Assembly (NCBI RefSeq): GCF_000697965.2
Contig: NZ_CP015881.1
Location: forward strand, 496,001 to 560,000
Source of the DNA: Ensifer adhaerens
GTDB taxonomy: Bacteria; Pseudomonadota; Alphaproteobacteria; Rhizobiales; Rhizobiaceae
DNA: 64,000 nucleotides
Reading direction: 5' to 3'
Under the pieces are notes generated by a model. It was not told the origin of the DNA, did no database searches, and worked only from the letters and a program-made list of their open reading frames with translations. A program made the translations under genes and the position numbers. The stretch's first letter is position 1, and every line of letters starts with the position of its first letter. Below are positions 19,549-62,599 of the stretch, piece after piece.

Positions 19549-19695
19549 GGCTGCATTCCTTTCTTCTCACGGGATCCGTGATCAGAGAGCTGGCTTTTGC
19601 ACCAAAAAGAAGAGGGAGGCTAGAGCATCTCTCGTCTTTGGGAGTGCCTGTGGAAGGCCTGAGAGGTGCTCGGACGAATTGGCGCGAAACGCAAT

Positions 19696-19722
19696 CAGCC
19701 CCCGGAACGGATCCAGGGGCTG
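19696..19722 (-). promoter_or_regulatory. Hairpin in substrate-binding protein to permease gap
   Basis: CAGCCCC and GGGGCTG form a 7-bp stem with a 13-nt loop. With the next hairpin it fills the gap between the binding-protein stop and the permease start. Such hairpins often protect the upstream message so that binding protein is made in excess. Confidence 0.5.
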
Positions 19723-19731
19723 TCGTTTACG

Positions 19732-19757
19732 CATCCGGCGCGGATGCGCGCCGGATG
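19732..19757 (-). promoter_or_regulatory. Strong hairpin 10 bp after binding-protein gene
   Basis: CATCCGGCGC and GCGCCGGATG are a perfect 10-bp inverted repeat around GGATGC. On the minus strand it is the first structure after the stop codon. There is no U-tract, so read-through to the permease genes is expected. Confidence 0.6.
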
Positions 19758-19767
19758 GCCATGCCGC

Positions 19768-21312: not shown

Positions 21313-21746
21313 GTCCCAAACTCCTGCTTATGCCTGTTGTGCGGATCGCACCGCCGCCCGAATTCTAGCCATCGGACGATTGCCGTGCATCATACTTATT
21401 CCCTAGTAATTTAGTGGGAAAATTGATTTCTTTTGTCAGGCGAAGTTGAAATTTGTACCCGCGATTGCGGCGGTTGGGCAGGTGCGTGTTTCGCTTTTCA
21501 TCGCTCGGTGTCGGCGGAGATATATCAGGCAGACTTTGGACGGCCCGTTGGCGCTTGAGGAATTGACGTGAACTCCTTCCGCTGATTGTGAACGCCAGGC
21601 GCCAAGCGGAAATCGATTGTTGTTCGCAAATCTTTTCCCTCGAAAATTGCAAAATGCAACGAGTCGACAAAAGGATTCGACAGTCGGAAGATTCTGATAT
21701 ATCGGCTGATTAATCGTTTAATCATGCGATAGCGGAAACCACTGAC
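21313..21746. promoter_or_regulatory. Divergent promoter region, AT-rich, no gene seen
   Basis: 434 bp between the peptide-type importer operon and the LacI-led operon. It is poorer in G+C than its flanks. It holds a perfect dyad TTGCA-AAA-TGCAA at 21647-21659, a GTCGA/TCGAC pair near 21663-21681, and a LacI-type operator at 21707-21724. A 101-codon open frame on the minus strand has no gene-like composition. Confidence 0.6.
21707..21724. promoter_or_regulatory. Predicted LacI-family operator
   Basis: TGATTAATCGTTTAATCA is an 18-bp dyad with 16 matching positions and the central CG typical of LacI-family operators. It ends 22 bp before the TTG start of the LacI gene, so autoregulation of the whole operon is likely. 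Confidence 0.65.
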
Positions 21747-22826
21747 TTGGCGCGTTCCGGACCAAAACTGACGAGGATTGCCAGAACGCTGGGCGTCTCC
21801 GCGGCGACGGTTTCAAACGCGCTCTCGGGCAAGGGGCGCGTCTCCGCCGAGATGGTGGAAAAGATCCGCGCGACCGCTGCCGAGCTCGGCTATGTGCCGA
21901 GCCAGGCGGGCAGGGCGCTGCGCACCGGCCGCACCGGTGTTCTCGGCCTCGTGCTTCCCGATATCGCCAATCCGCTCTTCCCACAGATCGCCCAGGCAAT
22001 CGAGCTTGCGGCTTCGTCCTCGGGCTATGGCGTGCTGATCGCCGACTCGCGCGGCGACGTCTCGACCCAGACTAAGGCGATCGAGCGCCTGATCGATCGC
22101 GACGTTGATGGCCTCGTGATCGTGCCCAGGCGCGGCACGCGCATTGCCGATGTCGGCTGTCCGGTCGCCGTCATCGATACGCCCTCGACGCCGGGCAACA
22201 CGGTCGCCGCCGACCATTGGGGTGGCGGCCGGCAGATTGGCGAACACCTTAAGGCTCTCGGCCACCGCCGCGTGATGATCATCGGCAACAATCCCGCCTC
22301 GAACGTGCAGAACGACCGCGCCGGCGGTATTCGCTCGGTCTTCGGCGAGGGCACCCATACCGATACGCTCTGGATCGAGCCGTTGGAAAAGGCGGCCGGC
22401 AAGGGCTGTCCGCTCGGCCTCGCCGACAAGGTGGCGGAAGGCTACACGGCCTTTGCTTGCATCTCCGATCTCCATGCGCTGCGGGCGCTGACCGAATTGC
22501 AGCGCGCCGGCATCAACGTGCCGGAAAAGGCGAGTGTCACCGGGTTCGACGACCTGATCTGGTCGCCGGTCATCACGCCGGCGCTGACGACCGCGCGCAT
22601 GGACATGACCAAGATCGCGGCGATCGCCGTCGCAGCCCTGGTCAAGGCGATCAGCGAGCGCGACCCGTCCGATCCCGCGATCGGCGCACCGGTTACGGCG
22701 GCGACCTGCAAGGTGCCGATGCATCTGGTCGTCCGGCAATCGGCCGCGGCACCGCCCGCGTCTCAACCCATTCTTACCACTGCCACCGCAGCTACATCCG
22801 TCACCGAAGGAGGACACCAGCCATGA
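21747..22826 (+). CDS. LacI-family transcriptional regulator
   Basis: A 359-residue regulator. The N-terminal helix-turn-helix and hinge (LTRIARTLGVSAATVSNALSG...RVSAEMVEKIRATAAELGYVPS) are followed by a periplasmic-binding-protein-like effector domain (TGVLGLVLPDIANPLFPQIAQAIE...). The last 25 residues are a low-complexity tail rich in Ala, Thr and Pro. Translation probably begins at TTG 21747. The stop overlaps the next gene's ATG within ATGA, making the regulator the first cistron of the uptake operon. An operator-like dyad lies just upstream. The effector is probably the transported purine compound or its product, by context. Confidence 0.88.
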   Translation: MARSGPKLTRIARTLGVSAATVSNALSGKGRVSAEMVEKIRATAAELGYVPSQAGRALRTGRTGVLGLVLPDIANPLFPQIAQAIELAASSSGYGVLIADSRGDVSTQTKAIERLIDRDVDGLVIVPRRGTRIADVGCPVAVIDTPSTPGNTVAADHWGGGRQIGEHLKALGHRRVMIIGNNPASNVQNDRAGGIRSVFGEGTHTDTLWIEPLEKAAGKGCPLGLADKVAEGYTAFACISDLHALRALTELQRAGINVPEKASVTGFDDLIWSPVITPALTTARMDMTKIAAIAVAALVKAISERDPSDPAIGAPVTAATCKVPMHLVVRQSAAAPPASQPILTTATAATSVTEGGHQP

Positions 22827-23845
22827 AGAAGTTCTTGCTTGCCTCGAGCGCGCTCTTGCTCGTTACCGCCCCTGCCGCATCCGCTCAGGAAAAGACGCTC
22901 ACCATTTCCGTGTACGGCTTTGCCCAGGACGCATTCAAGGAACTGGTCTACACCCCGTTCGAACAGAAGTGCGGCTGCAAGCTCGTCGTCGAAACCGGCA
23001 ACAGCGTCGAGCGCCTCGCCAAGATGGAAGCCAACAAGGCGAGCCCGGTCGTCGACATGGCCGTCGTCTCGATGGCCGACGCGCTTTCGGCCACCCGCGC
23101 CGATCTCATCGAAAAGATCGACACCTCGAAGCTCCAGAACTTCAACAAGCTCTACGACCTTGCCAAGGATCCGAACGGCGACGGCATGAGCGTCGGCTAC
23201 ACCTTCTATGCCACCTCGATCGTCTATCGCTCGGACAAGATGGAAGTGAACTCCTGGGCCGATCTCCTGAGCGACAAGAACGCCAGCCACGTCGCCTTCC
23301 CGAACGTCACCACCAACCAAGGCCCGCCGGCGCTCTACATGGTCGGCGAAGCCATCGGCAAGAACACGCCTGACCTCAAGGAAGCGATCGCCGCCGTCGG
23401 CGCCAAGAAGGACGATATCGTCACCTTCTACGTCAAGTCCTCCCAGCTCGTTCAGCTGATGCAGCAGGAAGAAATCTGGGCCGCTCCGATCGGTCGCTTC
23501 TCCTGGGAAGGTTTCACCAAGCTCGGCCTGCCGATCAAGTGGGCAACGCCCAAGGAAGGCCAGACCGGCGGCATGAACGTCATGGTGCTGACCAAGGGCA
23601 GCAAGAACCAGGATCTGGCGCTTGAGTTCATGGACTTCTGGCTCTCGACCGAAATCCAGACCGCACTTGCCGAAAAGCTGGTCGACAGCCCGGCCAACAA
23701 GGACGTGAAGGTTTCGCCCGAGATCGCCGAAAACCTCACCTACGGCGAAGAGACCGTGAAGAACCTGAAGCTGATCCCGTCGGCCGTTGCCCTCGACAAC
23801 CGCGAAGCGTGGCTGTCGGAGTGGAACGCCCAGGTCGGCCAGTAA
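22823..23845 (+). CDS. ABC transporter substrate-binding protein, family 1/PotD-like
   Basis: A 340-residue periplasmic protein with signal peptide (KKFLLASSALLLVTAPAASA) and mature start QEKTLTISVYGFAQDAFKELVYTPF, followed by ETGNSVERLAKM and WAAPIGRFSW. This layout is of the polyamine/iron/thiamine group (PotD, AfuA type) that partners with PotBC-like permeases. AAGGAGG stands 9 nt before ATG 22823. The two downstream enzymes act on nucleosides and adenine, so a purine compound is the inferred ligand. That would be unusual for this binding-protein class. Confidence 0.85.
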   Translation: MKKFLLASSALLLVTAPAASAQEKTLTISVYGFAQDAFKELVYTPFEQKCGCKLVVETGNSVERLAKMEANKASPVVDMAVVSMADALSATRADLIEKIDTSKLQNFNKLYDLAKDPNGDGMSVGYTFYATSIVYRSDKMEVNSWADLLSDKNASHVAFPNVTTNQGPPALYMVGEAIGKNTPDLKEAIAAVGAKKDDIVTFYVKSSQLVQLMQQEEIWAAPIGRFSWEGFTKLGLPIKWATPKEGQTGGMNVMVLTKGSKNQDLALEFMDFWLSTEIQTALAEKLVDSPANKDVKVSPEIAENLTYGEETVKNLKLIPSAVALDNREAWLSEWNAQVGQ

Positions 23846-23862
23846 GACCAAGCCATTGCGAC

Positions 23863-23893
23863 CTCCACCGGCGGATCGTGATCGCCGGTGGAG
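23863..23893 (+). promoter_or_regulatory. Strong hairpin between binding protein and permease
   Basis: CTCCACCGGCG and CGCCGGTGGAG form a perfect 11-bp stem with a 9-nt loop, 17 bp after the stop. No U-tract follows. It probably stabilises the binding-protein message relative to the permease genes. Confidence 0.6.
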
Positions 23894-23949
23894 ACCTGAT
23901 GCGACGGGCGCGATGAGACGCGCCCAGGAATGCCTTGAAAGGAAGAAGG

Positions 23950-24777
23950 ATGTTCCAGAACCGCGCCGAAGCCCTGGCGCTCGCTCTGCCCGCAGCGGTC
24001 TTTGCGGCGATCGTCTTTCTGGCGCCAGTGGTGATCCTGCTGGCGGAGGGCTTTCGCAGCGCCGACAGCTGGTCGCTGTCGGCCTATACGACCTTCTTTT
24101 CCGATCCGCTGAACCGCACCGTCTTCCTACGCACCTTCCGGCTCGGCCTGATGGTTACCGTCGTTTCGGCGGTCATCGGCTATGCCGCCGCCTTTGCGAT
24201 CGTCAATCTGACGCCGCGCAGCAAGGGACAGATGATCGGCCTTGTCGTGCTGCCGCTGATGATCTCGTCGGTTGCCCGCACCTATGCCTGGATCGTCATT
24301 CTCGGCCGCACCGGCATCGTCAACCAGGCGCTCCAGTTTGTCGGCCTCTCGGATGAGCCGATCCGCTTCCTGTTTACCGAGACCGCCGTGTTCATCGGTC
24401 TCTTGCAGCTTTTCCTGCCGCTGATGATCCTGTCCTTGATCAGCGCGCTCGAAAACATGCCGAAGGATGCGATCCCGGCTGCCCGCGTACTCGGCGCCAA
24501 CTGGTTCCAGGTGTTTTTCAAGGTGATCCTGCCGCTCACCAAGGAGGGCCTTGTTATTGGTGGTACCCTGGTCTTCACCGGCTCGCTGACGGCTTACATC
24601 ACACCGGCGATCCTCGGCGGCTCCAAGGTGCTGATGCTCGAAACGCTGCTCTATCAGCGCGTCACCGTCGCCAACGATTTCGTCGCGGCCAGCGTCATCG
24701 CCTTCATCCTGATCGTCATGAGCTTTGCCGCCAATCTTCTTTTGAAACGGCTTGCCACCGCGAGGAACAAGCGATGA
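23950..24777 (+). CDS. ABC transporter permease, PotB-like
   Basis: A 275-residue permease with six helices. The ATPase-docking EAA-type loop is near residues 175-200 (ALENMPKDAIPAARVLGANWFQVFFKVILPL). The large first periplasmic loop (FRSADSWSLSAYTTFFSDPLNRTVFLRTFRL) is typical of PotB-type proteins. The start at ATG 23950 follows GGAAGAAGG; the in-frame TTG at 23935 lies over the Shine-Dalgarno. It overlaps the next permease by 4 bp. Confidence 0.9.
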   Translation: MFQNRAEALALALPAAVFAAIVFLAPVVILLAEGFRSADSWSLSAYTTFFSDPLNRTVFLRTFRLGLMVTVVSAVIGYAAAFAIVNLTPRSKGQMIGLVVLPLMISSVARTYAWIVILGRTGIVNQALQFVGLSDEPIRFLFTETAVFIGLLQLFLPLMILSLISALENMPKDAIPAARVLGANWFQVFFKVILPLTKEGLVIGGTLVFTGSLTAYITPAILGGSKVLMLETLLYQRVTVANDFVAASVIAFILIVMSFAANLLLKRLATARNKR

Positions 24778-25553
24778 CACCCCGCGTCTTTTCACCCCTC
24801 GTCCTCTTCCTGGTGATCGGCTTCCTGATCGGGCCGTTCTTCATCATCGTCGCCGCGTCGCTCTCCGGCGGCGAGACGCTGGCCTTCCCGCCGCAGGGCT
24901 TCTCGCTCAGGTGGGTCGCCAAGGTGTTCACGGTCGAGAGCTTCCAGGAAAGTTTCGCGATCTCGATGCTGCTGGCGATCGGCGGAACGGCGGCCGCTCT
25001 CGTGCTCGGCGTTCCCGCCTCCTACGCCCTGTCGCGCTACAAGCTGCCGTTTGGCGAAACCATCCGCACGATCGTGTCGCTGCCAATCATCGTGCCCGGT
25101 ATCATCGTCGGCCTGGCGCTCTTGCGTTACATCGTTGTGCCCTTTGGCCTCAACATCACGCTGACGCTGTTTCTCGCCCACACCGCGCTGGTTCTGCCCT
25201 ATGCGGTACGGGTCGTCTCGGCGAGCCTCAACAACCTGCGCTCCGATATCGAGGAGGCGGCTGTGCTGCTCGGCTCCTCGCGCGCCGGCGCCTTCTTCCG
25301 CGTGGTGATGCCGAACATCCGCAGCGGCATCCTCGCCGCCTTCATCCTCGGCTTCGTCACGAGCTTCAACCAGGTGCCGGTATCGCTCTTCCTCTCCGGC
25401 CCGGGCGTGCGCACGCTGCCGATCGACATGCTCTCCTACATGGAGATCACTTACGATCCGTCGGTCGCCGCCCTCTCCGCGCTGCTCGCCTTCATGTCCA
25501 TCGGCATCGTCTTTCTTGCCGAACGCTTCCTGGGATTCTCTCGCTATGTCTGA
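24774..25553 (+). CDS. ABC transporter permease, PotC-like
   Basis: A 259-residue permease with six helices and the docking loop (SDIEEAAVLLGSSRAGAFFRVVMPNIRSG). It forms the heterodimeric channel with the previous gene product. ATGA overlap upstream and an 8-bp overlap with the ATPase gene downstream show tight coupling. Confidence 0.9.
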   Translation: MTPRVFSPLVLFLVIGFLIGPFFIIVAASLSGGETLAFPPQGFSLRWVAKVFTVESFQESFAISMLLAIGGTAAALVLGVPASYALSRYKLPFGETIRTIVSLPIIVPGIIVGLALLRYIVVPFGLNITLTLFLAHTALVLPYAVRVVSASLNNLRSDIEEAAVLLGSSRAGAFFRVVMPNIRSGILAAFILGFVTSFNQVPVSLFLSGPGVRTLPIDMLSYMEITYDPSVAALSALLAFMSIGIVFLAERFLGFSRYV

Positions 25554-26574
25554 CGCCCCCTTCCTCAGCCTTGAAAAACTGACGCTCGCCTATGGCGATA
25601 CCGTTGCGGTGAAGGACCTCGACCTTTCGATCCGCAAGGGCGAACTGGTGGCCTTCCTTGGGCCCTCCGGTTGCGGCAAGACGACGACGATGCGCTCGAT
25701 CGCCGGCCTGCTGTCGCCCGCGTCCGGCGCGATCAAGCTCGATGGTGCCGACATCACCCGCGTGTCCGCCAACAAGCGCTCGGTCGGCCTGGTCTTCCAG
25801 TCCTATGCGCTGTTTCCGCACCTGACCGTGTTCGAAAACGTCGCCTTCGGCCTGCGGCTGAAGAAGCTGCCGGCCAACGAGATCGAGAGCAAGGTGACCG
25901 CCGGTCTCAAGTCGGTCGGGCTTTCGAAGTTTTCCGCCCGCAAGCCGGGCGAACTCTCCGGTGGCCAGCAGCAGCGTGTCGCGCTGGCGCGTTCCATGGT
26001 CATGGAGCCGAAGGTGCTGCTGCTCGACGAGCCGCTGTCGAACCTCGACGCTCGTCTGCGCCTCGAAATGCGCACGGAACTGCAGCGGGTGCAGAAGGAA
26101 ACCGGCGTCACGATGATCTTCGTCACCCACGACCAGGGCGAGGCCCTGTCGCTGGCGGACCGCATCGTCGTCATGCTGAACGGCGCGATCGAGCAGCTCG
26201 GCACGCCCGAGGATATCTACAACCGCCCGATCTCGCGCTTCGTCGCCGACTTCGTCGGTTTCGAAAACATCTTTGCCGTCGAGGGCGGCAAGCTGAAGGC
26301 CGAGAACGGCCCGATCGATCTTTCCGGATCCCTGCCGCCTGACACGGCAGGGCTTGCGTGGCGTCCGCGCATGGTGACCCTTGGTTCAGGTCCTTTCCAA
26401 GGCACCGTGCGCGGAGCCTCTTTCTCCGGCAGCACGCGCGAGTACCTGCTCGATACGCCGCTCGGCGCCATCAAGGCGGAAGAGGATGCAGCACTTGCAG
26501 CCCGTGAAACCGGTTCTGCCATTGCCTTCGACCTGCCGGTCGAGAAGGCCGCACGCCTCAAGAAGTTCGGGTAA
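25546..26574 (+). CDS. ABC transporter ATPase, PotA-like with TOBE domain
   Basis: A 342-residue ATPase: Walker A (GPSGCGKTTTMRS), Q-loop (VFQSYALFPHLTVFENVAFGL), signature LSGGQQQRVALARS, Walker B (VLLLDEPLSNLD) and H-loop (FVTHDQGEA). The C-terminal 100 residues form a TOBE-like regulatory domain (LAWRPRMVTLGSG...). The start at ATG 25546 lies within the end of the permease gene. It energises the importer and sits 6 bp before the nucleoside hydrolase gene. Confidence 0.92.
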   Translation: MSDAPFLSLEKLTLAYGDTVAVKDLDLSIRKGELVAFLGPSGCGKTTTMRSIAGLLSPASGAIKLDGADITRVSANKRSVGLVFQSYALFPHLTVFENVAFGLRLKKLPANEIESKVTAGLKSVGLSKFSARKPGELSGGQQQRVALARSMVMEPKVLLLDEPLSNLDARLRLEMRTELQRVQKETGVTMIFVTHDQGEALSLADRIVVMLNGAIEQLGTPEDIYNRPISRFVADFVGFENIFAVEGGKLKAENGPIDLSGSLPPDTAGLAWRPRMVTLGSGPFQGTVRGASFSGSTREYLLDTPLGAIKAEEDAALAARETGSAIAFDLPVEKAARLKKFG

Positions 26575-26580
26575 GGTCCG

Positions 26581-27501
26581 ATGGGTGTCTGGATCGATAC
26601 GGACATGGGGTTCGACGACATTGCCGCAGTGCTTGTCGTCCTTCATGCCGGTGAAGAGATCGACGGCGTTTCGCTGGTTTTCGGTAACACGCCGCTTGAC
26701 CAGGTGAAGCGCAACGCTGCCGGCGCCGCGCGCGCTTTCGGCTGGGCTTTCCCCATCCATGAGGGGCGCGCCCTGCCGGTGCTCGGCAAGCTCGAAACTG
26801 CCGAACGCATCCTTGGCGAAGCCGGCATGCCGACAGCGGGATTGACGCTGCCGGAGGCCGACGCCTTGCCGGTAAGCGACGCCTTTGCGGCACTTTGCGC
26901 CTGGCTGGAGCAGGAGGGGCCGAAGCGGATTCTGGCGCTCGGGCCGCTCACCAATCTCGCTGCCCTTTGCCTTGCCCGTCCGGACTTGGCGAGCCGGATC
27001 ACCGACCTCACCTGGATGGGGGGCGGCGTCACCAGCGGCAACCATACGGCATCTGCCGAATTCAACGCCTTCGCCGATCCGGAAGCGCTGGCGATCGTGA
27101 TCGCTCATGGCCTGCCGCTGCGCATGGTCGATCTCGATCTCTGCCGCAAGGTCTTTGCCTACCCCGATGACGTCGCGCCGATCCGCTCGGCGGGTGGCGT
27201 CCATGCCGCCCTCATCGCCGATCTGCTTGCCGGCTTCATTTCGATCGGCACCAGTCGCGGCCGGCCGGGCATGGCGATCTACGACCCTTGCGCTGCCGTT
27301 GCCTTCGTCAATCCGGGCGCAATCTCGTTTCGCAAGGCGCGCATTGATGTCGAACTCGGAGGGACGCTGGCCCGCGGGCGCACCGTCGTCGAAACGCGCG
27401 AAAGCCACGCGATCTTCAATGCCGAATATGCCGTCGATGCCCATGTCGAGACGACCAGGGCTCAGATCCTGGGCGCTTTGATGAAGGAAGCGCAGAAGTG
27501 A
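26581..27501 (+). CDS. Nucleoside hydrolase (IunH family)
   Basis: A 306-residue cytoplasmic enzyme expected to split ribonucleosides into base and ribose. The calcium and ribose binding cluster appears as DTDMGFDD near residue 6, the active-site loop as LGPLTNLA near 120, and SAEFNAFADPEA near 160. The C-terminal position usually written HDP is YDP here (Tyr234-Asp235), so the usual leaving-group His is replaced. Pro is also Met in the first motif. The gene lies between transporter and adenine deaminase and overlaps the latter (GTGA), pointing to purine nucleosides, perhaps adenosine. The replacement makes specificity uncertain. Confidence 0.88.
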   Translation: MGVWIDTDMGFDDIAAVLVVLHAGEEIDGVSLVFGNTPLDQVKRNAAGAARAFGWAFPIHEGRALPVLGKLETAERILGEAGMPTAGLTLPEADALPVSDAFAALCAWLEQEGPKRILALGPLTNLAALCLARPDLASRITDLTWMGGGVTSGNHTASAEFNAFADPEALAIVIAHGLPLRMVDLDLCRKVFAYPDDVAPIRSAGGVHAALIADLLAGFISIGTSRGRPGMAIYDPCAAVAFVNPGAISFRKARIDVELGGTLARGRTVVETRESHAIFNAEYAVDAHVETTRAQILGALMKEAQK

Positions 27502-29285
27502 GTTCCATAGAGCAGCCTCAGGACTTGATGGATGCGGCGCTCCGCAGCCGGGCAGTGGCGGCAGCGCGTGGTGCTGAACCGTTCGACGTTCTGATTTCGG
27601 GCGGTACGCTCGTCGACGTGGTGACGGGCGAGTTTCGCCCGGCCGATATCGGCCTTGTTGGATCGTTGATCGCAAGTGTCCACGAACCGGGCACGCGCTC
27701 CGATGCGGCAACCATGATCGATGCGACGGGCGCTTACGTTTCGCCCGGTCTGATCGACACCCATATGCACGTCGAAAGCTCGATGGTGACGCCGGCGACC
27801 TATGCCAATGCGGTGCTGCCGCGTGGCGTGACGACCGTCGTCTGGGATCCGCATGAGTTTGGTAATGTCAACGGTGTGGCCGGCGTGCGCTGGGCCGCAA
27901 ACGCCAGTCGCGATCTGCCGCTGCGCACGGTGCTGCTGGCACCGTCGAGCGTGCCGTCAGCACCCGGCCTGGAGCTGGCCGGTGCCGATTTCGACGCTGA
28001 TGTGATCGCCGACATTTTGAGCTGGCCGGAAATCGGCGGCATCGCCGAAATGATGAACATGCGCGGCGTCATCGACGGTGAGGCGCGCATCACCGGGATC
28101 GTTCAGGCGGGGCTTGCCGCCGGCAAGCCGGTCAATGGCCATGCGCGCAGCCTTGCGGGCTCTGATCTGCAGGCCTTCGTGACCGCCGGCGTCAGCTCCG
28201 ACCATGAGCTCGTTTCCGGCGACGATCTGCTGGCAAAACTCAGGGCAGGGCTTTCGATCGAACTGCGCGGCTCGCACGATCACCTGCTGCCGGAATTCGT
28301 CAAAACGATCAAGGCTCTGGGCCATCTTCCTCAGACGGTAACGCTCTGCACCGACGACGTTTTCCCGGACGATCTTGCCCATGCCGGCGGCCTCGACGAC
28401 GTCGTTCGCCGGCTGGTGCGCTATGGCCTGCCCGCCGAATGGGCGCTTCGGGCAGCCACGCTGAACGGCGCGGTCCGCCAGGGCCGGCATGATCTTGGAC
28501 TTGTGGCGCCAGGGCGTCGGGCGGACATCGTGATCTTCGAAGATCTCGCTGATTTCCGTGCGCGCACGGTCATCGTCGACGGCAAGTCGATTGCAGACGC
28601 CGGACGGATGATCGAGCCGCTCTGCGGCATCGCCGCCGAGACCCTGCACGGCACGATGAAGATCGCGCCGCTGTCGGAGAACGATTTCCGCATTCCAGCA
28701 GATGGCACGAAGGTCCGCGTCGCGACCATCGACCGGCCGCGTTTTACCCAATGGGGCGATGCCGTTGCCGCGGTCGAGGGCGGCTTCGTCGTTCCGCCCG
28801 AGGGGACGACTCTGATCGCCGTGGCGCATCGTCACGGGCGCGCCGACAGCCGACCGGCTGTGGGTCTGCTGTCGAGTTGGGGCGCCTGGCGCGGCGCCTT
28901 TGCAACCACGGTATCGCATGACAGCCACAACCTCACGGTTTTCGGCGGCAATGCGCAGGATATGGCGGTCGCCGCCAACGCGGTGATTGCTGCCGGTGGC
29001 GGCATGGCCGCTGTGTCCGGCGGCAAGGTCGATGCACTCCTGCCTCTGCCGCTCGCGGGGCTGGTCTCCGAGGAGCCGCTGGAAGAGGTGGCGGATAGCT
29101 TTGCCGCACTCCGCGAAGCAGTCGGCCGCATCGTCGATTGGCAGCCGCCTTACCTGGTCTTCAAGGCCTGCTTCGGCGCGACGCTCGCCTGCAATGCCGG
29201 ACCGCACCAGACCGATCGCGGCATCGCCGACGTGGCGACGGGCAAGGTCATGGAAAGCCCGATCCTGGAGATCCTTGAAGCCTGA
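27498..29285 (+). CDS. ade: Adenine deaminase
   Basis: A 595-residue amidohydrolase of usual Ade length. The metal-binding motif GLIDTHMHVESSM lies near residue 90, followed by TTVVWDPHEFGNVNG. Further conserved blocks are GHARSL near 210, SSDHELVS near 230 and ELRGSHDH near 255, with a C-terminal domain containing TVSHDSHNL. It converts adenine to hypoxanthine and ammonia in the cytoplasm. GTG 27498 overlaps the nucleoside hydrolase stop. The pair would take adenosine to hypoxanthine, feeding the phosphoribosyltransferase or the xanthine dehydrogenase at 61-64 kb. Confidence 0.93.
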   Translation: MSSIEQPQDLMDAALRSRAVAAARGAEPFDVLISGGTLVDVVTGEFRPADIGLVGSLIASVHEPGTRSDAATMIDATGAYVSPGLIDTHMHVESSMVTPATYANAVLPRGVTTVVWDPHEFGNVNGVAGVRWAANASRDLPLRTVLLAPSSVPSAPGLELAGADFDADVIADILSWPEIGGIAEMMNMRGVIDGEARITGIVQAGLAAGKPVNGHARSLAGSDLQAFVTAGVSSDHELVSGDDLLAKLRAGLSIELRGSHDHLLPEFVKTIKALGHLPQTVTLCTDDVFPDDLAHAGGLDDVVRRLVRYGLPAEWALRAATLNGAVRQGRHDLGLVAPGRRADIVIFEDLADFRARTVIVDGKSIADAGRMIEPLCGIAAETLHGTMKIAPLSENDFRIPADGTKVRVATIDRPRFTQWGDAVAAVEGGFVVPPEGTTLIAVAHRHGRADSRPAVGLLSSWGAWRGAFATTVSHDSHNLTVFGGNAQDMAVAANAVIAAGGGMAAVSGGKVDALLPLPLAGLVSEEPLEEVADSFAALREAVGRIVDWQPPYLVFKACFGATLACNAGPHQTDRGIADVATGKVMESPILEILEA

Positions 29286-29287
29286 CA

Positions 29288-29320
29288 TTCAACGGCCGCC
29301 CAGGCAGGGCGGCCGTTGAA
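29288..29320. terminator. Long perfect hairpin ending the purine operon
   Basis: TTCAACGGCCGCCC and GGGCGGCCGTTGAA form a 14-bp perfect stem with a 5-nt loop, 3 bp after the adenine deaminase stop and before a convergent gene. There is no long U-tract, but placement suggests bidirectional termination. Confidence 0.65.
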
Positions 29321-30597: not shown

Positions 30598-30789
30598 CGT
30601 CAGGCATTCCCATGTTTCATTGCGCGAAGGGCTTGTGAATTCCGCGTGCTTTGCTTGAGCCGCAGCGCCCTTTCGGTTTGATCGAAGTCGCAAACGGTAT
30701 AGACGAAAACGGCCGGAACCAGAACAGCAAGCCGGCCTTTTTGATCGCCTTTCATTTCGGGCGAAAGCGCGCAGACGAGGACCGGACCG

Positions 30790-31470
30790 ATGCAGCCCCA
30801 CGACTTCTGGCAGGAAATCTACCCGCCGAAAAGTTTCGATATTCAGGCGGGTTATCGCGATTTCTTCCCGGCGTCCCTCGGTGATGGCAGGCAGATTCTC
30901 CTGCCGATCCGTCAACTCGCCGACGGCAAACATGCGCTGGCCTCGCTGATCGTCAATCAGGCGAGCTTTGCTGTTGAGGACGCACTGGCAACGGAACTTG
31001 CGGCGAAGCTCGCCCCCTATGAGCCCGAAGTCGTCGCCGGTCTGCCGACGCTCGGCCTCACGCTCGCTTCGGCCGTTGCCCGCAAGCTCGGCCACAGCCG
31101 CTACGTGCCACTCGGGACGTCCAAGAAGTTCTGGTATGTCGACGATCTCTCCGTGCCGCTCTCCTCGATCACCACGCCCGACCAGAAGAAGCGTCTCTAC
31201 GTCGATCCGCGAATGTTGCCCTTGCTTGAGGGTAAGCGCGTGGCTCTGATCGATGACGTCATTTCCAGCGGTACGTCGATCCTTGCCGGGCTGACGCTGA
31301 TGGAAGCCTGCGGCATCGAGCCGGTCGCGATCGGCGCGGCCATGCTGCAGACCGAGCGCTGGCACCAGCCGCTTGCGGACCGTGCACCGCATTGGCCGGA
31401 GCGTGTCGTCGGAGTGTTTCAAACGCCCTTGCTTCAGCGGGGTGAAGACGACAGCTGGCGCGCCGCCTGA
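30790..31470 (+). CDS. Phosphoribosyltransferase (type I)
   Basis: A 226-residue cytoplasmic enzyme with the PRPP-binding motif VALIDDVISSGTS near residues 153-165 and a PRTase core (VVAGLPTLGLTLASAVARKLG) upstream. It would join a purine (or other) base to PRPP. It is longer than typical adenine PRTases and has an unusual KKFWYVDDLSVPLSSITTP insert where the flexible loop lies. The closeness to nucleoside hydrolase and adenine deaminase suggests salvage of the freed base; specificity is inference. Confidence 0.8.
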   Translation: MQPHDFWQEIYPPKSFDIQAGYRDFFPASLGDGRQILLPIRQLADGKHALASLIVNQASFAVEDALATELAAKLAPYEPEVVAGLPTLGLTLASAVARKLGHSRYVPLGTSKKFWYVDDLSVPLSSITTPDQKKRLYVDPRMLPLLEGKRVALIDDVISSGTSILAGLTLMEACGIEPVAIGAAMLQTERWHQPLADRAPHWPERVVGVFQTPLLQRGEDDSWRAA

Positions 31471-53458: not shown

Positions 53459-54751
53459 ATGTTTGAACGACTATTCAAGCTGAAAGAGCATCAGACGACG
53501 GCGCGCACCGAGGTGATCGCCGGTATCACGACATTCCTGACGATGTCCTACATCATCTTCGTCAACCCCGACATCCTGTCGAGCACGGGCATGGATAGGG
53601 ATGCCGTCTTCGTCGCAACCTGTATTGCCGCGGCACTCGGCTCTGCGGTCATGGCGCTCGTCGCCAACTGGCCAATCGGCATGGCGCCGGGCATGGGCCT
53701 CAACGCCTTCTTCGCCTTCACCGTCGTTGCGGCGCTTGGCTTCACCTGGCAGCAGGCGCTGGGTGCTGTCTTCATCTCGGGCGTGATCTTCCTGATCCTG
53801 ACCGTGACGGGGGTCCGAAGCTGGCTGATCGCCGGCATTCCGCATTCGCTTCGAAGCGCGATCGCCACCGGTATCGGCCTCTTCCTTGGCATCATCGCCC
53901 TGAAGAACGCCGGCATCGTCGTCGACAACCCGGCAACGCTCGTCGGTCTCGGCGACCTCAAGCAGACTGGCCCGCTGCTCGCGATCCTCGGCTTCTTCGT
54001 GATTGCCGTTCTGGACTCGCTAAAAGTTCGCGGCTCGATCCTGATCGGCATCCTGGTCGTCACCGTCCTGTCGATGATCCTCGGCGTCAGCGAGTTCAAG
54101 GGCATCGTCTCGGCACCGCCGAGCATCGCGCCGACCTTCCTGCAACTCGACATCATGGGCGCCCTGCACGGCGGCCTGCTGCATGTCATCCTCGTCTTCG
54201 TGCTCGTCGAAGTCTTCGACGCCACCGGCACGCTGATCGGTGTCGCCAAGCGCGCCAAACTGGTGGAAGAAGGCAAGCCGAACCGTCTGGGCCGCGCGCT
54301 TCTCGCCGACAGCACCGCGATCGTCGCCGGCTCGCTGATCGGTACCAGCAGCACGACCGCCTATGTCGAAAGCGCCTCGGGCGTCCAGGCCGGCGGCCGC
54401 ACGGGCCTGACCGCGCTCACCGTCTGCGTGCTCTTCCTGGCCGCGCTGTTCTTCTCGCCGCTGGCAGCTGCCGTTCCGTCCTATGCGACGGCCCCGGCTC
54501 TGCTCTACGTTGCCGGCCTGATGATGCGCGAACTGACGGAAGTCGAGTGGGACGACCTGACGGAAGCGGCTCCGGCAGCGCTTACAGCACTCGCCATGCC
54601 CTTCACTTACTCGATCGCCAACGGCCTCGCCTTCGGCTTCGTCAGCTATGTCGTCTTGAAGGTCTTCACCGGTAAGTGGAGCGTCATCCACCCGGCAACC
54701 CAGCTCGTGGCAGCGCTCTTCATCGTGCGCTTCGCGTTCTTCGCCGAATAA
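53459..54751 (+). CDS. AzgA-like purine permease (NCS2/NAT-related, AdeQ/GhxP group)
   Basis: A 430-residue permease with about 13 membrane helices. The family signatures are the N-terminal RTEVIAGITTFLTMSYIIFVNPDIL, then GMAPGMGLNAFFAF, and FDATGTLIGVAK, followed by DSTAIVAGSLIGTSSTTAYVESASG. The AzgA group imports adenine, guanine and hypoxanthine by proton symport. AAGGGAGGAAAG precedes ATG 53459. Its promoter shares a 16-nt element with the hiuH-xdhAB operon, which supports uptake of bases destined for oxidation. Confidence 0.9.
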   Translation: MFERLFKLKEHQTTARTEVIAGITTFLTMSYIIFVNPDILSSTGMDRDAVFVATCIAAALGSAVMALVANWPIGMAPGMGLNAFFAFTVVAALGFTWQQALGAVFISGVIFLILTVTGVRSWLIAGIPHSLRSAIATGIGLFLGIIALKNAGIVVDNPATLVGLGDLKQTGPLLAILGFFVIAVLDSLKVRGSILIGILVVTVLSMILGVSEFKGIVSAPPSIAPTFLQLDIMGALHGGLLHVILVFVLVEVFDATGTLIGVAKRAKLVEEGKPNRLGRALLADSTAIVAGSLIGTSSTTAYVESASGVQAGGRTGLTALTVCVLFLAALFFSPLAAAVPSYATAPALLYVAGLMMRELTEVEWDDLTEAAPAALTALAMPFTYSIANGLAFGFVSYVVLKVFTGKWSVIHPATQLVAALFIVRFAFFAE

Positions 54752-56523: not shown

Positions 56524-56619
56524 GGGCAATTCTCCGTGCATAAAGCTGCATGATAACGTCACTGCCGTAGCTCTGTGAATGGCGCCCTGTCGCAAGATGA
56601 TGGACAAAACTCGCGTCGG

Positions 56620-57483: not shown

Positions 57484-57567
57484 GGTCGCAGTCTTCGTCC
57501 GATTTCGGCGGCCAGCGAGGCCCTGGCGCACCGATAACCCGACCGGACGACCGGGTCATGCATTCAT

Positions 57568-58096: not shown

Positions 58097-58125
58097 GATC
58101 GCTTCGCCTCCTCGGCGAAACGATC
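58097..58125 (-). promoter_or_regulatory. Hairpin between allantoicase and allA
   Basis: GATCGCTTCGCC and GGCGAAACGATC pair over 11 of 12 positions with a TCCTC loop. It starts in the allantoicase stop codon. No U-tract follows on the minus strand, so it may tune rather than end transcription. Confidence 0.5.
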
Positions 58126-59144
58126 TAGATGCCGGCTTTCGCAATACGCCCGAAGACACGCAGCCGGCTGACGCCGCCGTCGGGGAAGATGTTGAAGCGC
58201 ACGTGGGTTACCGGACCCGCGATCGCGAGTGCGCTTGCTTCATAGGTGTGGATGCTGTCGGCGGCGAGTTTCTGCGGCGGCAGGACCTCGCGCCAGAACA
58301 TCGACGATGCCGTAACGGATGCGGCCACTTCGCAAGCGTTCGCTCCAAGGTCTGCCGCCTGCAGCGAACAGGCGTCCGGGTAGTTGCCCTTGAAGTGGGC
58401 GGTATCGACCACGATCCGGTCGATCTCGCCGCGCGCGGCGAGTTTCACCACGATCCAGTCGTTGCCGGGCTCGCGCCGCCGGCGGGTCTCCCAACCGTCG
58501 CCCATGTTGATGCCGCGTCCGGGCGCAAGCAGCCGCTGGTGGCCGTAGTGTCCGTTGGAATAGGCGATGATGCGCCCGCCGAGCAATGATGAGGCCAGAT
58601 CGACCACCGCGTCGCCGATCGCTGCCCGGTCTAGCGCAGGCGCGCCGTAAACCCGAAGGCGGGCGACGCCGCCGTCGGGATAGATGCGCAAGCGCACATG
58701 GCTCCAGACAGAATCCGACCGCGCTTCGAAGTGATGCAGCGCGCTCGGGCCAAGCGGCCGAGGGCAGACCAGCTCCGTCCAGACCGTCCGATCGTCCGGG
58801 CCATCCGGTGCCAGGCAGGCGTCGATGGCGCAAGCGCTCGGGTAGTTGCCGGTGAAATGAGCGGTATCAACCTCGAAGCCCCGGATGAGGCCGTTCGTCG
58901 CGAGTGCCACGATGGCGTGGTCGTTGCCGGGGCCGCGGCGTCGCCGCGTCTCCCAGCCGTCCATCCACTTGCCGTTCTCGTCATAGACACCGGGATGATA
59001 GACCGGCGGCGCGTCCTGCAGCATGCGTTCGAGCGGCGCGAAGAACTCGTCGGTTGCAAAGACCGGCCGCGCGCCGAGACCGGCGGAGGCAAGGTTGATC
59101 GCGTTCAGCGCGAATTCGGGCGGGTTCACGCCGTCGATCGTCAT
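58125..59144 (-). CDS. alc: Allantoicase
   Basis: A 339-residue enzyme made of two tandem allantoicase domains. Each contains the signature WETRRRRxPGND (residues near 64-75 and 226-237), followed by AHFxGNYPxACxxxA and a DGGVxRLRVxG block. It hydrolyses allantoate to ureidoglycolate and urea. ATG 59144 is preceded by GAGGG. It lies 10 bp downstream of the fused puuE-uraD gene and upstream of allA. Confidence 0.94.
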   Translation of the reverse strand: MTIDGVNPPEFALNAINLASAGLGARPVFATDEFFAPLERMLQDAPPVYHPGVYDENGKWMDGWETRRRRGPGNDHAIVALATNGLIRGFEVDTAHFTGNYPSACAIDACLAPDGPDDRTVWTELVCPRPLGPSALHHFEARSDSVWSHVRLRIYPDGGVARLRVYGAPALDRAAIGDAVVDLASSLLGGRIIAYSNGHYGHQRLLAPGRGINMGDGWETRRRREPGNDWIVVKLAARGEIDRIVVDTAHFKGNYPDACSLQAADLGANACEVAASVTASSMFWREVLPPQKLAADSIHTYEASALAIAGPVTHVRFNIFPDGGVSRLRVFGRIAKAGI

Positions 59145-59154
59145 CGCGAGACCC

Positions 59155-60570
59155 TCAGCTCGGCAGCATGTCCTTGAGGCGCAGATAGGCGATCCGCTCC
59201 ACCTGCCGGCACGCGGTCTCGAACTCCGTATCGCGATCGTTGCCGATCCGGCTTTCGAAGGCGGCGAGGATCTCGTCCTTGCTGCGCCCCTTGACCGCCA
59301 TGATGAACGGGAACTTGAACTTCTCGACATAGGCGGCGTTGAGCGTGGTGAAGCGTTCACGCTCGGCATCGGTCAGCGCATCGAGGCCGGCACCGGCCTG
59401 CTCGTTGGTCGAGCTTTCGGTCAGGCGCTTGGCCTGTGCCAGCTTGCCGGCGAGATCGGGGTGGGCGATCAGCACGGCAAGCCGCTCCTCGGCCGAAGCT
59501 TCGCGGAAGACTGCGGAAAGGGCGGCGGCAAGGCCGATCGCGGTGTCGTTGGCCGGCGAAAGTTCGCGCTGGAAGGCGCGCTTCGCGATCCACTTCGAAT
59601 GTTCGAAGACGCCGCCGAACCTGGCGACGAACGCCTCTTCGCCAAGCCGCGACGGACGATCGTCCCAGGCCTTGTACGGGTAGTTTTCGGCCCAATGGCG
59701 GGCGATATCGACGCGTTTTGCGAGCCACACCTTCTCGTGGCCCTGCACATAATCGAGGAAGCGGGCGAGTGCCGCGGCGCGGCCGGGCCGGCCGACGAGG
59801 CGGCAGTGCAGCCCGATGCTCAGCATCTTCGGCGCACCGGCCGTACCTTCGGCGTAGAGCACGTCGAAGCTGTCCTTGAGGTAGGTGAAGAACTGGTCGC
59901 CGCTGTTGAAACCCTGCGGCGTGGCAAAACGCATGTCGTTGCTGTCGAGCGTGTAGGGGATGACCAGCTGATGGCGCCCCGCATGCTCATGCCAATAGGG
60001 CAGGTCGTCGGCATAGGCGTCCGATACGTAGTCGAAGCCGCCGGCTTCGGTCACCAGGTCGAGCGTGTTGTCGGAACAGCGCCCCGTGTACCAGCCGCGC
60101 GGGCGCTCTCCGGTGACGATGGTGTGCAGCCGGATCGCTTCGGCGATCTCCTGGCGCTCGCGCTCCGGCGAAAAGTCCTTGTGTTCGATCCATTTCAGGC
60201 CGTGCGAGGCGATTTCCCAGCCGGCGTCCTGCATGGCGGCGACCTGTTCCGGCGAGCGCTTCAGCGCGGTTGCGACGCCATAGACGGTCGCCGGCACGCC
60301 GCGCTCGGTGAACATGCGATGCAGCCGCCAGAAGCCGGCGCGTGCGCCATATTCGTAGATCGATTCCATGTTCCAGTGGCGCTGGCCCTGCCAGGCCTGC
60401 GCACCGACGATTTCCGACAGGAATGCCTCGGACGCTGCGTCGCCATGCAGCACGCAGTTCTCGCCGCCTTCCTCGTAATTGATGACGAATTGCACGGCGA
60501 TCCGCGCGCCGTCGGGCCATGTGATCTTGAAGTTCGGGCCGTGGCCGTGAAGATCGCGGGGGTATCTCAT
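59155..60570 (-). CDS. puuE: Fused allantoinase (PuuE-like) and OHCU decarboxylase (UraD)
   Basis: A 471-residue bifunctional protein. Residues 1-305 match PuuE, the cofactor-free allantoinase of the polysaccharide deacetylase fold (RDLHGHGPNFKITWPDGARIAVQFVINYEEGGE...EIASHGLKWIEH). Residues about 310-471 match UraD, which decarboxylates OHCU to S-allantoin (HPDLAGKLAQA with the catalytic His, SSTNEQAGAGLDAL and FPFIMAVKGRSKDEIL). The two reactions follow each other in the opposite order to the domains, so product transfer is possible. ATG 60570 has GGAGGAG about 9 nt upstream. First gene of a minus-strand operon with alc and allA. Confidence 0.93.
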   Translation of the reverse strand: MRYPRDLHGHGPNFKITWPDGARIAVQFVINYEEGGENCVLHGDAASEAFLSEIVGAQAWQGQRHWNMESIYEYGARAGFWRLHRMFTERGVPATVYGVATALKRSPEQVAAMQDAGWEIASHGLKWIEHKDFSPERERQEIAEAIRLHTIVTGERPRGWYTGRCSDNTLDLVTEAGGFDYVSDAYADDLPYWHEHAGRHQLVIPYTLDSNDMRFATPQGFNSGDQFFTYLKDSFDVLYAEGTAGAPKMLSIGLHCRLVGRPGRAAALARFLDYVQGHEKVWLAKRVDIARHWAENYPYKAWDDRPSRLGEEAFVARFGGVFEHSKWIAKRAFQRELSPANDTAIGLAAALSAVFREASAEERLAVLIAHPDLAGKLAQAKRLTESSTNEQAGAGLDALTDAERERFTTLNAAYVEKFKFPFIMAVKGRSKDEILAAFESRIGNDRDTEFETACRQVERIAYLRLKDMLPS

Positions 60571-60644
60571 CTAAGCAGCTCCTCCAGACATTTTCGTCTC
60601 TGCATCCAATTTCTAGCGGCATTTGTTTCGAGCCATTCCCCCCA

Positions 60645-60660
60645 AAAAATTTGAAAGTCT
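60645..60660 (+). promoter_or_regulatory. 16-nt motif shared with the purine permease promoter
   Basis: AAAAATTTGAAAGTCT, identical to 53192-53207. It lies 83 bp before hiuH and 75 bp before the divergent puuE-uraD start, so it could affect both operons. Confidence 0.55.
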
Positions 60661-60742
60661 CGAATGATCCGGTCGCTACCAAGCGGGTGGGAATGCCGGA
60701 ATACTGCGAGGTGGAAAGCTGACTTCGGGAGGAGCGAAAACT

Positions 60743-61114
60743 ATGCAATCTCAGGGTGGAAACGCCGGCCGTTTGACGACGCACGTGCTGGATACGGCCA
60801 GCGGCAAACCGGCCGAAGGGCTGCGCATCGAGCTCTACCGGGTCGATGGCGATCGCCAGACGCATATCAAGTCCGTCAAGACCAATGACGACGGCCGCTG
60901 TGACGAGCCGCTTTTGAGCGGCGAGCGCATGCAGACCGGCACCTACGAGCTGCAGTTCCATGCGGGCGATTATCTCGGCGGCGCAGCCAAGCGCGGTGAC
61001 AACCCGTTCCTCGACGTGATCCCAATCCGCTTCGGCATCGATAACCAGGGCGCGCACTATCACGTGCCGCTGCTGCTTTCGCCCTATGGCTACTCCACCT
61101 ATCGCGGGAGCTGA
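60743..61114 (+). CDS. hiuH: 5-hydroxyisourate hydrolase (transthyretin-like)
   Basis: A 123-residue protein with the HIUase signature: [23 protein letters not shown] at the N-terminus and the C-terminal tetrapeptide YRGS, which transthyretin lacks. His ligands in THVLD and HYHVPLL fit the active site. It hydrolyses 5-hydroxyisourate to OHCU. GGGAGGAG precedes ATG 60743 by 9 nt. It is followed 3 bp later by xdhA, so both are made from one message. Confidence 0.95.
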
Positions 61115-61117
61115 GCA

Positions 61118-62599
61118 ATGACGATCCAAATCCGCAACACCATCCGCTTCATCCTGAACCACCGCCTCGTCGAACTTGCCGATGTTTCGCCGGTTCAGAC
61201 TCTGCTCGATTTTCTGCGGATCGACCGCAATCTGAAGGGCACGAAAGAAGGCTGCGCCGAGGGCGACTGCGGTGCCTGCACCGTGCTTATCGGCCGCCTG
61301 CTCGACGGCAAGCTCAAGTATGAATCCGTCAATGCCTGCATCCGTTTCGTCGGCTCGCTCGACGGCTGTCATATCGTGACGGTGGATAGTTTGGCGCAGC
61401 CGGCTGGCCCGTTGCATCCGGTGCAGCAGGCAATGGTCGACACGCATGCCTCGCAGTGCGGTTTCTGCACGCCGGGCTTCGTGATGTCGCTCTATGGCCT
61501 CTGGATGGAGAACTCGAAGCCGTCGATCGCCGAAATCGAAAAGGCGCTGCAGGGCAATCTTTGTCGCTGCACCGGCTATGCCGCGATCATTCGCGCCGCC
61601 GAGGCGATCTCGACGATCGGCGATATCGGCAAGGATCCGCTGGTGGCCGAACGCGACCGGATCGCAGGCGAACTGGCAGCACTTCAGGATGGCCGTCGCG
61701 TGGAAATCGGCTCCGAGACCGAGCGCTTCATCCTGCCGGGCTCGGTCGATGATTTCGCCGCCGTGCTCGAAGCCAACCCGAAGGCGACGATCGTTGCCGG
61801 TTCGACCGATGTCGGCCTCTGGGTCACCAAATTCATGCGCGACATCTCACCGGTCATTCACCTGACCCATCTTGAAGAACTGCGCCGCATCACGGTCGAT
61901 GCCGACGGCGTGACGCTCGGCGCCGGCGTCAGCTACGCCGAAGCCTACCCCGTTATCGTCGCGCACTTCCCTGAACTGACCGAGCTTTGGGATCGCATCG
62001 GCGGCCAGCAGGTCCGCAACATGGGCACCGTGGGCGGCAACATTGCCAACGGCTCGCCGATCGGCGACACCCCGCCGGCGCTGATTGCGCTTGGCGCCGC
62101 GATCACGCTGCGCAAGGGCGATCGCCGCCGCACGGTCGTCCTCGAGGACTTCTTCATCGCCTACGGCAAGCAGGACCGCGAGCCGGGCGAGTTCGTGGAA
62201 AGCGTGCGCATTCCTTTCGTTTCGGATAAGGCGCGCGTGGCCGTCTACAAGGTGACGAAGCGTCTGGATGAGGACATTACCGCCGTCTGCGGCGGCTTCA
62301 ACATCGCCTTCGAGGCAGGTCGGGTCAGCGACGCCATCATCGCCTTCGGCGGCATGGCCGCTACGCCGAAGCGAGCCGCTCATGTGGAGGCGGTGCTAAA
62401 AGGCGCCGAGTGGAACGAGGAGACGATCGAGCGCGCTGTCGCTGCCTTCGATCAGGACTTCACGCCGCTCACCGACTGGCGCGCCTCGGCGGAGTACCGC
62501 CAACTGGTGGCGAAGAACCTGCTTCGCCGCTTCTATCTCGAAACGCAGTCGAGTGGCGGCCAGCTCCGTCTCGATCGCACCATTGCCGTCGCGGTTTAA
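61118..62599 (+). CDS. xdhA: Xanthine dehydrogenase small subunit (iron-sulfur and FAD domains)
   Basis: A 493-residue subunit. The [2Fe-2S] domain has CAEGDCGACTVL near residue 46 and the second cluster CGFCTPGF...NLCRCTGY near 112-150. The FAD domain follows (about 205-380; IVAGSTDVGLWVTK, then GTVGGNIANGSPIGDTPPALIALGA), and a CO-dehydrogenase-type C-terminal domain ends the protein. It transfers electrons from xanthine oxidation to NAD. It starts 3 bp after hiuH and ends 11 bp before xdhB. Confidence 0.95.
   Translation: MTIQIRNTIRFILNHRLVELADVSPVQTLLDFLRIDRNLKGTKEGCAEGDCGACTVLIGRLLDGKLKYESVNACIRFVGSLDGCHIVTVDSLAQPAGPLHPVQQAMVDTHASQCGFCTPGFVMSLYGLWMENSKPSIAEIEKALQGNLCRCTGYAAIIRAAEAISTIGDIGKDPLVAERDRIAGELAALQDGRRVEIGSETERFILPGSVDDFAAVLEANPKATIVAGSTDVGLWVTKFMRDISPVIHLTHLEELRRITVDADGVTLGAGVSYAEAYPVIVAHFPELTELWDRIGGQQVRNMGTVGGNIANGSPIGDTPPALIALGAAITLRKGDRRRTVVLEDFFIAYGKQDREPGEFVESVRIPFVSDKARVAVYKVTKRLDEDITAVCGGFNIAFEAGRVSDAIIAFGGMAATPKRAAHVEAVLKGAEWNEETIERAVAAFDQDFTPLTDWRASAEYRQLVAKNLLRRFYLETQSSGGQLRLDRTIAVAV

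Follow-up and report, generated by a model that had tools for sequence, protein, structure and literature searches.

A candidate adenosine uptake and catabolic operon with a PotD-type binding protein in Ensifer adhaerens

The operon and its conservation

The subject of this article is a seven-gene operon of Ensifer adhaerens that may join the import of purine nucleosides to their breakdown. It lies in a window of 64,000 nucleotides (positions 496,001 to 560,000 of NZ_CP015881.1), on a replicon that is contig C2 of the 7.27 Mb genome. Open reading frame (ORF) positions and profile searches place all seven genes in one direction between 21747 and 29285 of the window, and the DNA from 21700 to 29300 is 100% identical to plasmid unnamedA of E. 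adhaerens Casida A-T305. An initial annotation had read this stretch as an operon of regulator, PotD-type binding protein, two permeases, ATPase, nucleoside hydrolase and adenine deaminase. Every gene is where that annotation had put it, on the same strand, and the families it named all score above their Pfam cut-offs (LacI with Peripla_BP_3, SBP_bac_8, BPD_transp_1 twice, ABC_tran, IU_nuc_hydro and Adenine_deam_C). The operon's features, with ABC standing for ATP-binding cassette, are:

21707..21724, no strand assigned: predicted LacI operator TGATTAATCGTTTAATCA, 22 bp 5' of lacI
21747..22826, plus strand: LacI-family regulator, probable local repressor, TTG start (PF00356 and PF13377 above cut-off)
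22823..23845, plus strand: PotD-type substrate-binding protein, 340 aa, predicted adenosine/purine-nucleoside receptor (PF13416)
23863..23893, plus strand: intercistronic hairpin with a perfect 11-bp stem, in the gap between binding protein and permease 1
23950..24777, plus strand: ABC permease 1, PotB-like (PF00528)
24774..25553, plus strand: ABC permease 2, PotC-like (PF00528)
25546..26574, plus strand: ABC ATPase, PotA/PhnT2-like (PF00005)
26581..27501, plus strand: nucleoside hydrolase IunH, without the two group-I histidines (PF01156, 216.4 bits vs 34.2)
27498..29285, plus strand: adenine deaminase Ade, close kin of Agrobacterium Atu4426 (PDB 3NQB; phmmer, PF13382)

The genes are tightly packed. 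From the sequence we refined the start of the binding protein to the ATG at 22823, overlapping the lacI stop, and that of the ATPase to the ATG at 25546; the GTG start of Ade overlaps the stop of IunH. Permease 1 most likely starts at the ATG at 23950, which leaves 104 bp after the binding-protein gene, the only long gap in the operon. A stem of at least 8 occurs in this gap in 57 of 79 loci, compared with 7 of 79 when the gaps are shuffled once each, and in many relatives the stem at this place has a different sequence. Intercistronic hairpins commonly shield the message 5' of them.

When named genomes were scanned at the protein level, 241 relatives were confirmed; the loci compared here are the best 80 of these. 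The complete order (lacI, binding protein, permease 1, permease 2, ATPase, IunH, Ade) is found in 77 of the 80, on one strand, with each protein at least 50% identical and a span of 7434-7763 bp, which argues that the operon is not a product of chance. At one of the three exceptions (L047) the contig ends; at another (L037) the place of Ade after IunH is taken by an M20 peptidase gene. The third, L018 from Sinorhizobium sp. 8-89, has kept the transporter, with IunH in fragments and neither lacI nor Ade detected at the locus, and is apparently a case of operon decay.

Further out, the binding protein finds matches at E 1e-20 in 44 of 199 sampled genomes of the order (61 places, 12 of them at 54% identity or more, own included, and the remaining 49 at 36% or less) and at E 1e-28 in 13 of 289 genomes of the class (14 places, five at 49% or more, own included). 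All 15 non-own loci whose binding protein is at least 49% identical make up what we call the distant set. The remote set is formed by 58 places, 49 from the order and 9 from the class, with identities of 36% or less; 15 of their neighbourhoods were read. Paralogue counts per genome are lower bounds, as some paralogues may be missed.

The binding protein and its transporter

By their nearest NCBIfam models the transporter subunits resemble PotD, PotB, PotC and PhnT2/PotA, all under the curated cut-offs. Permease 1 scores 151.6 bits with PotB (cut-off 348), permease 2 scores 111.7 bits with PotC (cut-off 326), and the ATPase reaches 344.9 bits with TIGR03265 (cut-off 457.7) and 342.8 with PotA (cut-off 482). 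The binding protein has 55.7 bits with the PotD equivalog model, for which the cut-off is 582, and 44.7 bits with the second polyamine model, PotF, for which it is 636. Pfam assigns it to PF13416 and kin, and not to PF02608, the family of the BmpA-type proteins.

A confident AlphaFold2 model of the binding protein, built on an alignment of 58 of the 240 relatives listed plus the window's own protein, has a mean predicted local distance difference test score of 91.0. Its Foldseek matches are, in order, 4edp, 3pu5 and 4i1d, then polyamine receptors (PotD kin) and opine receptors; 4edp, from Clostridium perfringens, is the closest binding protein of solved structure. What the predicted structure shows is a PotD-type fold, not a ligand. 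The opine receptors among these matches are from Agrobacterium (opine-bound MotA and AgtB, and AttC without a ligand), and they would suit an importer of some adenosine-containing conjugate or nucleotide, made by plants or other bacteria and first processed outside the operon. The conserved seven-gene unit has no phosphatase, esterase or conjugate hydrolase, and we give this reading next to no weight.

The residues that line the PotD site bear on polyamine binding. In a HMMER alignment PotD D168, E171, W229, W255 and D257, which we take with the others listed here to be polyamine contacts, become V, N, G, G and N; Y37 and Y85 become D and A, W34 becomes F, and S83 is kept as Ser. The acidic and aromatic contacts of PotD are replaced in the binding protein, whose N252 and D288 align with PotD D257 and Y293. 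Could this still be an ordinary polyamine importer, lying beside purine genes by chance? Its fold and the kinship of its subunits to PotABCD would agree with that, and so would some of the public names: among the 120 named orthologues listed, the source records name some as polyamine or spermidine/putrescine binding proteins and others simply as ABC substrate-binding proteins. Against it stand scores far under the PotD and PotF cut-offs, the replaced contacts, the operon order kept in 77 of 80 loci, and the remote paralogues, since in 13 of the 15 remote neighbourhoods the transporter had neither IunH nor Ade beside it by tblastn (a weak partial Ade match at L156 aside). With its contact residues replaced and its gene context as it is, we set the polyamine importer aside as very improbable.

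The L156 locus is in our own genome. The match there falls on an amidohydrolase gene, the last of a distinct BmpA-type cluster, and L156 was counted as unlinked. Among the ORFs typed near the other remote paralogues, L126 and L128 have aldehyde dehydrogenase neighbours and L127 has another amidohydrolase.

In a tree built from 31 binding proteins, a branch with support 93/91 separates the 18 linked sequences, our own among them, from the 13 unlinked. Twenty-four alignment columns are common to 17 or all 18 of the linked proteins and to at most 4 of the 13 unlinked ones; they include C50, C52, E57, N60, R64, T163, W240, N252 and D288 in the 340-aa numbering. Among them is a Cys-Gly-Cys at residues 50-52, both cysteines of which occur in 18/18 linked binding proteins and 0/13 unlinked paralogues.

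Enzymes, regulator and purine genes

IunH belongs to the inosine-uridine nucleoside hydrolase family, with PF01156 above cut-off and the family's calcium and ribose Asp, Asn and Glu residues in place: D6, D8, D12, D13, N36, N154, E160, N162 and D235 are kept in 78 of 78 close orthologues, and all the residues of this kind that were tested are shared with the solved enzymes 1mas and 6ba0. Where those two enzymes have their two histidines, IunH has Leu78 and Tyr234, again in 78 of 78 close orthologues, and so lacks the active-site histidine pair of the group-I nucleoside hydrolases. The group-I histidines presumably help the base leave. The 14 distant operon copies never have His at these sites: position 78 holds Leu in 13 of them and Val in 1, position 234 Tyr in 12 and Phe in 2. 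Both other hydrolases of the genome (L001 and L002) have His at both positions, as do two extra hydrolases at relatives' loci (L154b and L123b); a third, L123a, has His and Val. The replacement in IunH suggests a different base preference, possibly for purines. No signal peptide is apparent in IunH by eye.

Ade matches PDB 3NQB, which is Atu4426, with 945 bits in phmmer over residues 4-593, a near-full-length match that takes in the C-terminal domain PF13382 and makes it a putative Atu4426-type enzyme; Agrobacterium genomes carry the same operon. In print, Atu4426 is described as deaminating unmethylated adenine (PMC12133300) and E. coli AdeC as inactive on N6-methyladenine (PMC13296781), and both accounts cover the enzyme rather than the operon or a transporter. 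The initial annotation had offered cytokinin ribosides as a variant cargo. That variant finds no specific support, given the substrates that these sources describe for Atu4426 and AdeC, and we dropped it. The genome has four Ade matches in all, and one adenosine deaminase-family match whose matched region contains a TAG. At L153 (G000:C2:288434-293452) two more adenine deaminase-type genes, one of them above the TIGR01178 cut-off, flank an NCS2 permease.

The company that the importer keeps in the distant set speaks for adenosine. IunH is in the cluster at 14 of the 15 loci (the exception is L121), and an adenosine- or adenine-type deaminase, by family assignment, is nearby at all 15: Ade at 12, an adenosine deaminase at two (L164 and L165), and an amidohydrolase of the 5'-methylthioadenosine (MTA)/adenosine type at L121. 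At L154 Ade adjoins IunH from the opposite strand. At L164 the genes for IunH and the binding protein are divergent, and past IunH comes an adenosine deaminase (PF00962, 5486-6694) that scores 217.8 bits against a TIGR01430 cut-off of 216.55. L165 (5594-6697) is arranged like L164. The two adenosine deaminases are 75% identical, are convergent with IunH and come from family f66, outside the order of the window. At L121 the amidohydrolase is divergent and falls in the TRZ/MTA/5'-deoxyadenosine deaminase group, with the operator core lying between it and lacI. The deaminases differ and have adenosine or adenine in common, which points to adenosine as the cargo, and the adenosine deaminase of L165 strengthens the case.

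A sister group of binding proteins (L122 and L123) extends the pattern. Both lie beside adenine deaminase-type genes with PF13382 above cut-off, and L123 also has two nucleoside hydrolases. Both carry an amidohydrolase of the L121 type, 65% identical to each other and 51-53% to that of L121; for the L122 enzyme, which shares 52% identity with that of L121, the nearest PDB chain is 4f0r, named an MTA/S-adenosylhomocysteine (SAH) deaminase.

These observations bear on two rivals that share much with the adenosine reading. In one, the same enzymes serve another adenine nucleoside, such as MTA, 5'-deoxyadenosine, 2'-deoxyadenosine or a cytokinin riboside. The amidohydrolase group of L121, L122 and L123 does hold MTA/SAH and 5'-deoxyadenosine deaminases, and a hydrolase without both group-I histidines may have an unusual preference. 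On the other side, adenosine deaminases adjoin IunH in L164 and L165, IunH retains the ribose and calcium residues of its family, and the published substrates speak against cytokinins. We consider it rather unlikely. In the other, the importer is broad, taking inosine, guanosine, uridine or adenine itself, and the deaminase uses one product only. The distant set has kept IunH more often than Ade (14 and 12 of the 15 loci), and the models nearest to IunH include RihC, a broad enzyme. The deaminases near all 15 loci, adenosine- or adenine-type by family, argue the other way, and for an importer of adenine only the hydrolase would be needless. A broad importer, too, strikes us as improbable.

The regulator has a helix-turn-helix and an effector domain and is nearest, among NCBIfam models, to RbsR (157.6 bits against a cut-off of 382); its nearest solved structures are mixed LacI proteins, from which we infer no effector. 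Its predicted operator is the more telling part. When up to 2 mismatches are allowed, the palindrome TGATTAATCGTTTAATCA has no second match anywhere in the 7.27 Mb genome. In a survey of 26 genomes, 16 of the same genus and ten from other families, it occurs at up to 1 mismatch exactly once per genome in 16/16 of the former (own included), just 5' of lacI, and was not found in the latter. With the outermost bases left free, the operator core lies within 150 bp of lacI in 77/77 complete named loci, and the core TTAAWCGWTTAA is present in 11 of the 15 distant loci. Neither lacI nor a core was detected in L114, L164 and L165, and L119 has lacI without the exact core. A conserved palindrome found only at its own operon makes this LacI a probable local regulator. 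We rejected the idea of a global purine regulon, as the operator is single in our genome and in each same-genus genome; it follows that there is no second copy at the xdh or NCS2 genes. LacI-family groups named AdeR, HpxR and UriR were assigned to local control of nucleoside utilization by Ravcheev et al. in 2014 (PMC4052901). The LacI of the operon may be their AdeR, and part of the regulation may already have been predicted there.

Where would the hypoxanthine go? Purine genes lie in the same window:

30775..31470, plus strand: phosphoribosyltransferase-domain protein (PF00156; 77% to the Sinorhizobium meliloti R28 gene)
53459..54751, plus strand: NCS2 purine-type permease (PF00860; 94% to its operon-proximal counterpart in S. 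meliloti R28)
58125..62599, no single strand assigned: allantoicase, a fusion of allantoinase PuuE and 2-oxo-4-hydroxy-4-carboxy-5-ureidoimidazoline (OHCU) decarboxylase, 5-hydroxyisourate hydrolase (HIUase) and xanthine dehydrogenase XdhA (Pfam, S. meliloti R28 order)

On pSymB of S. meliloti R28 the 8 kb after the operon contain M20, phosphoribosyltransferase, NCS2 permease, puuE, uraH and xdhA genes. The counterparts of the S. meliloti R28 genes lie at 29.4-31.5 and 53.5-62.6 kb of the window, with the allantoicase at 58.1 kb. The xanthine dehydrogenase that had been placed some 32 kb away is indeed there, at 61118, 31.8 kb from the end of the operon. This context, in S. meliloti R28 and in the window, gives hypoxanthine a plausible route to urate and allantoin.

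Other neighbours may be noted in passing. Just upstream of the operon, 17735-21312 on the minus strand, are genes judged by eye to encode an Opp/Dpp-type peptide ABC importer. An M20 peptidase-family gene follows the operon (29437-30597). At 55273-57531 on the minus strand an ORF of 753 aa has a cytochrome P450 match restricted to residues 546-748.

Adenosine as the likely cargo

Putting the parts together, we think it likely that the importer carries a purine ribonucleoside of some kind, and, with somewhat less assurance, that adenosine is its main cargo. The purine-nucleoside import that had been proposed stands as a prediction, supported by the gene order, the exchange of deaminases, the lost PotD contacts, the one-operon LacI site and the purine genes of S. 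meliloti R28. The operon would then probably be a self-contained unit for the uptake and catabolism of adenosine, as a purine ribonucleoside. LacI on its single operator, before its own gene, would repress the operon until a purine-derived inducer arrives. In the periplasm the PotD-type protein would capture the nucleoside, which the PotABC-like membrane complex would then import. In the cytoplasm IunH, to judge by its family, would split adenosine into adenine and ribose, and Ade, by the same token, would turn adenine into hypoxanthine and ammonia. Xanthine dehydrogenase and the urate and allantoin genes, which are present on the same replicon, could take hypoxanthine further.

Several results weigh against this reading. 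Ade scores 370.9 bits with TIGR01178, under the cut-off of 472.5, and the deaminases of L122 and L123 are also below that cut-off. The L164 enzyme is below the cut-offs of the other adenosine deaminase models, and the MTA-type amidohydrolases of L121, L122 and L123 are below all NCBIfam cut-offs shown. The contig of L121 is only 9183 bases long. Three of the 15 loci in the distant set have no Ade, which means that adenine is not the product in every case. The models nearest to IunH in NCBIfam (RihC, UriH and RihA) are not purine-only enzymes. L018 has retained its transporter without enzymes or a detectable regulator. The 93/91 support for the split in the tree falls slightly short of the program's threshold, and the program flagged long branches among the unlinked proteins; the signature columns were chosen from the same 31 rows, so they describe the linked group and are no test of it. 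Lastly, the genome encodes four BmpA-type (PF02608) proteins, which means that the operon is not its only candidate nucleoside importer.

How does the operon compare with what is known? With PotABCD and PotFGHI it shares the binding-protein fold, two PotB/PotC-like permeases and a PotA-like ATPase; it differs in its replaced polyamine contacts, its scores far below cut-off and its fixed partners LacI, IunH and Ade. With BmpA/PnrA-type importers it shares its presumed function, that of an ABC importer of nucleosides, and it has another family of binding protein. The one BmpA-type cluster of the genome that we read (L156:1243-7197, at 1.08 Mb of C2) consists of ABC genes followed by an Amidohydro_3 enzyme; unlike in the operon, its ATPase contains two ABC_tran stretches and its permeases are of the BPD_transp_2 family. 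Beyond it, at about 7565-8280 of L156, is a possible small VapBC-type toxin-antitoxin pair, judged by eye. In the open-licence literature, judged by title and the start of the abstract, we recognised no report of a Pot-type nucleoside importer or of this operon.

What is new, then, is a Pot-type importer that appears to have been adapted to purine nucleosides, with adenosine the likeliest of them. The chances look about even that the whole picture holds jointly: the PotD superfamily would have a nucleoside-binding branch, recognisable by Cys-x-Cys, Glu57, Asn60, Arg64, Thr163, Trp240, Asn252 and Asp288, which occurs in several alphaproteobacterial families and often goes under a polyamine-binding label, and it would be served by a branch of hydrolases that cleaves adenosine without either group-I histidine.

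If the adenosine reading is true, a transporter branch that public names often call polyamine-binding carries nucleosides, nucleoside import by ABC systems gains one more family of binding proteins, and the residue signature can be used to correct annotations. The one-site LacI switch could serve as a purine sensor, and the catalysis of a histidine-free nucleoside hydrolase is open to direct test. Rhizobia and agrobacteria, for their part, would have a dedicated adenosine route for carbon and nitrogen, supplied for example by root exudates or decaying cells.

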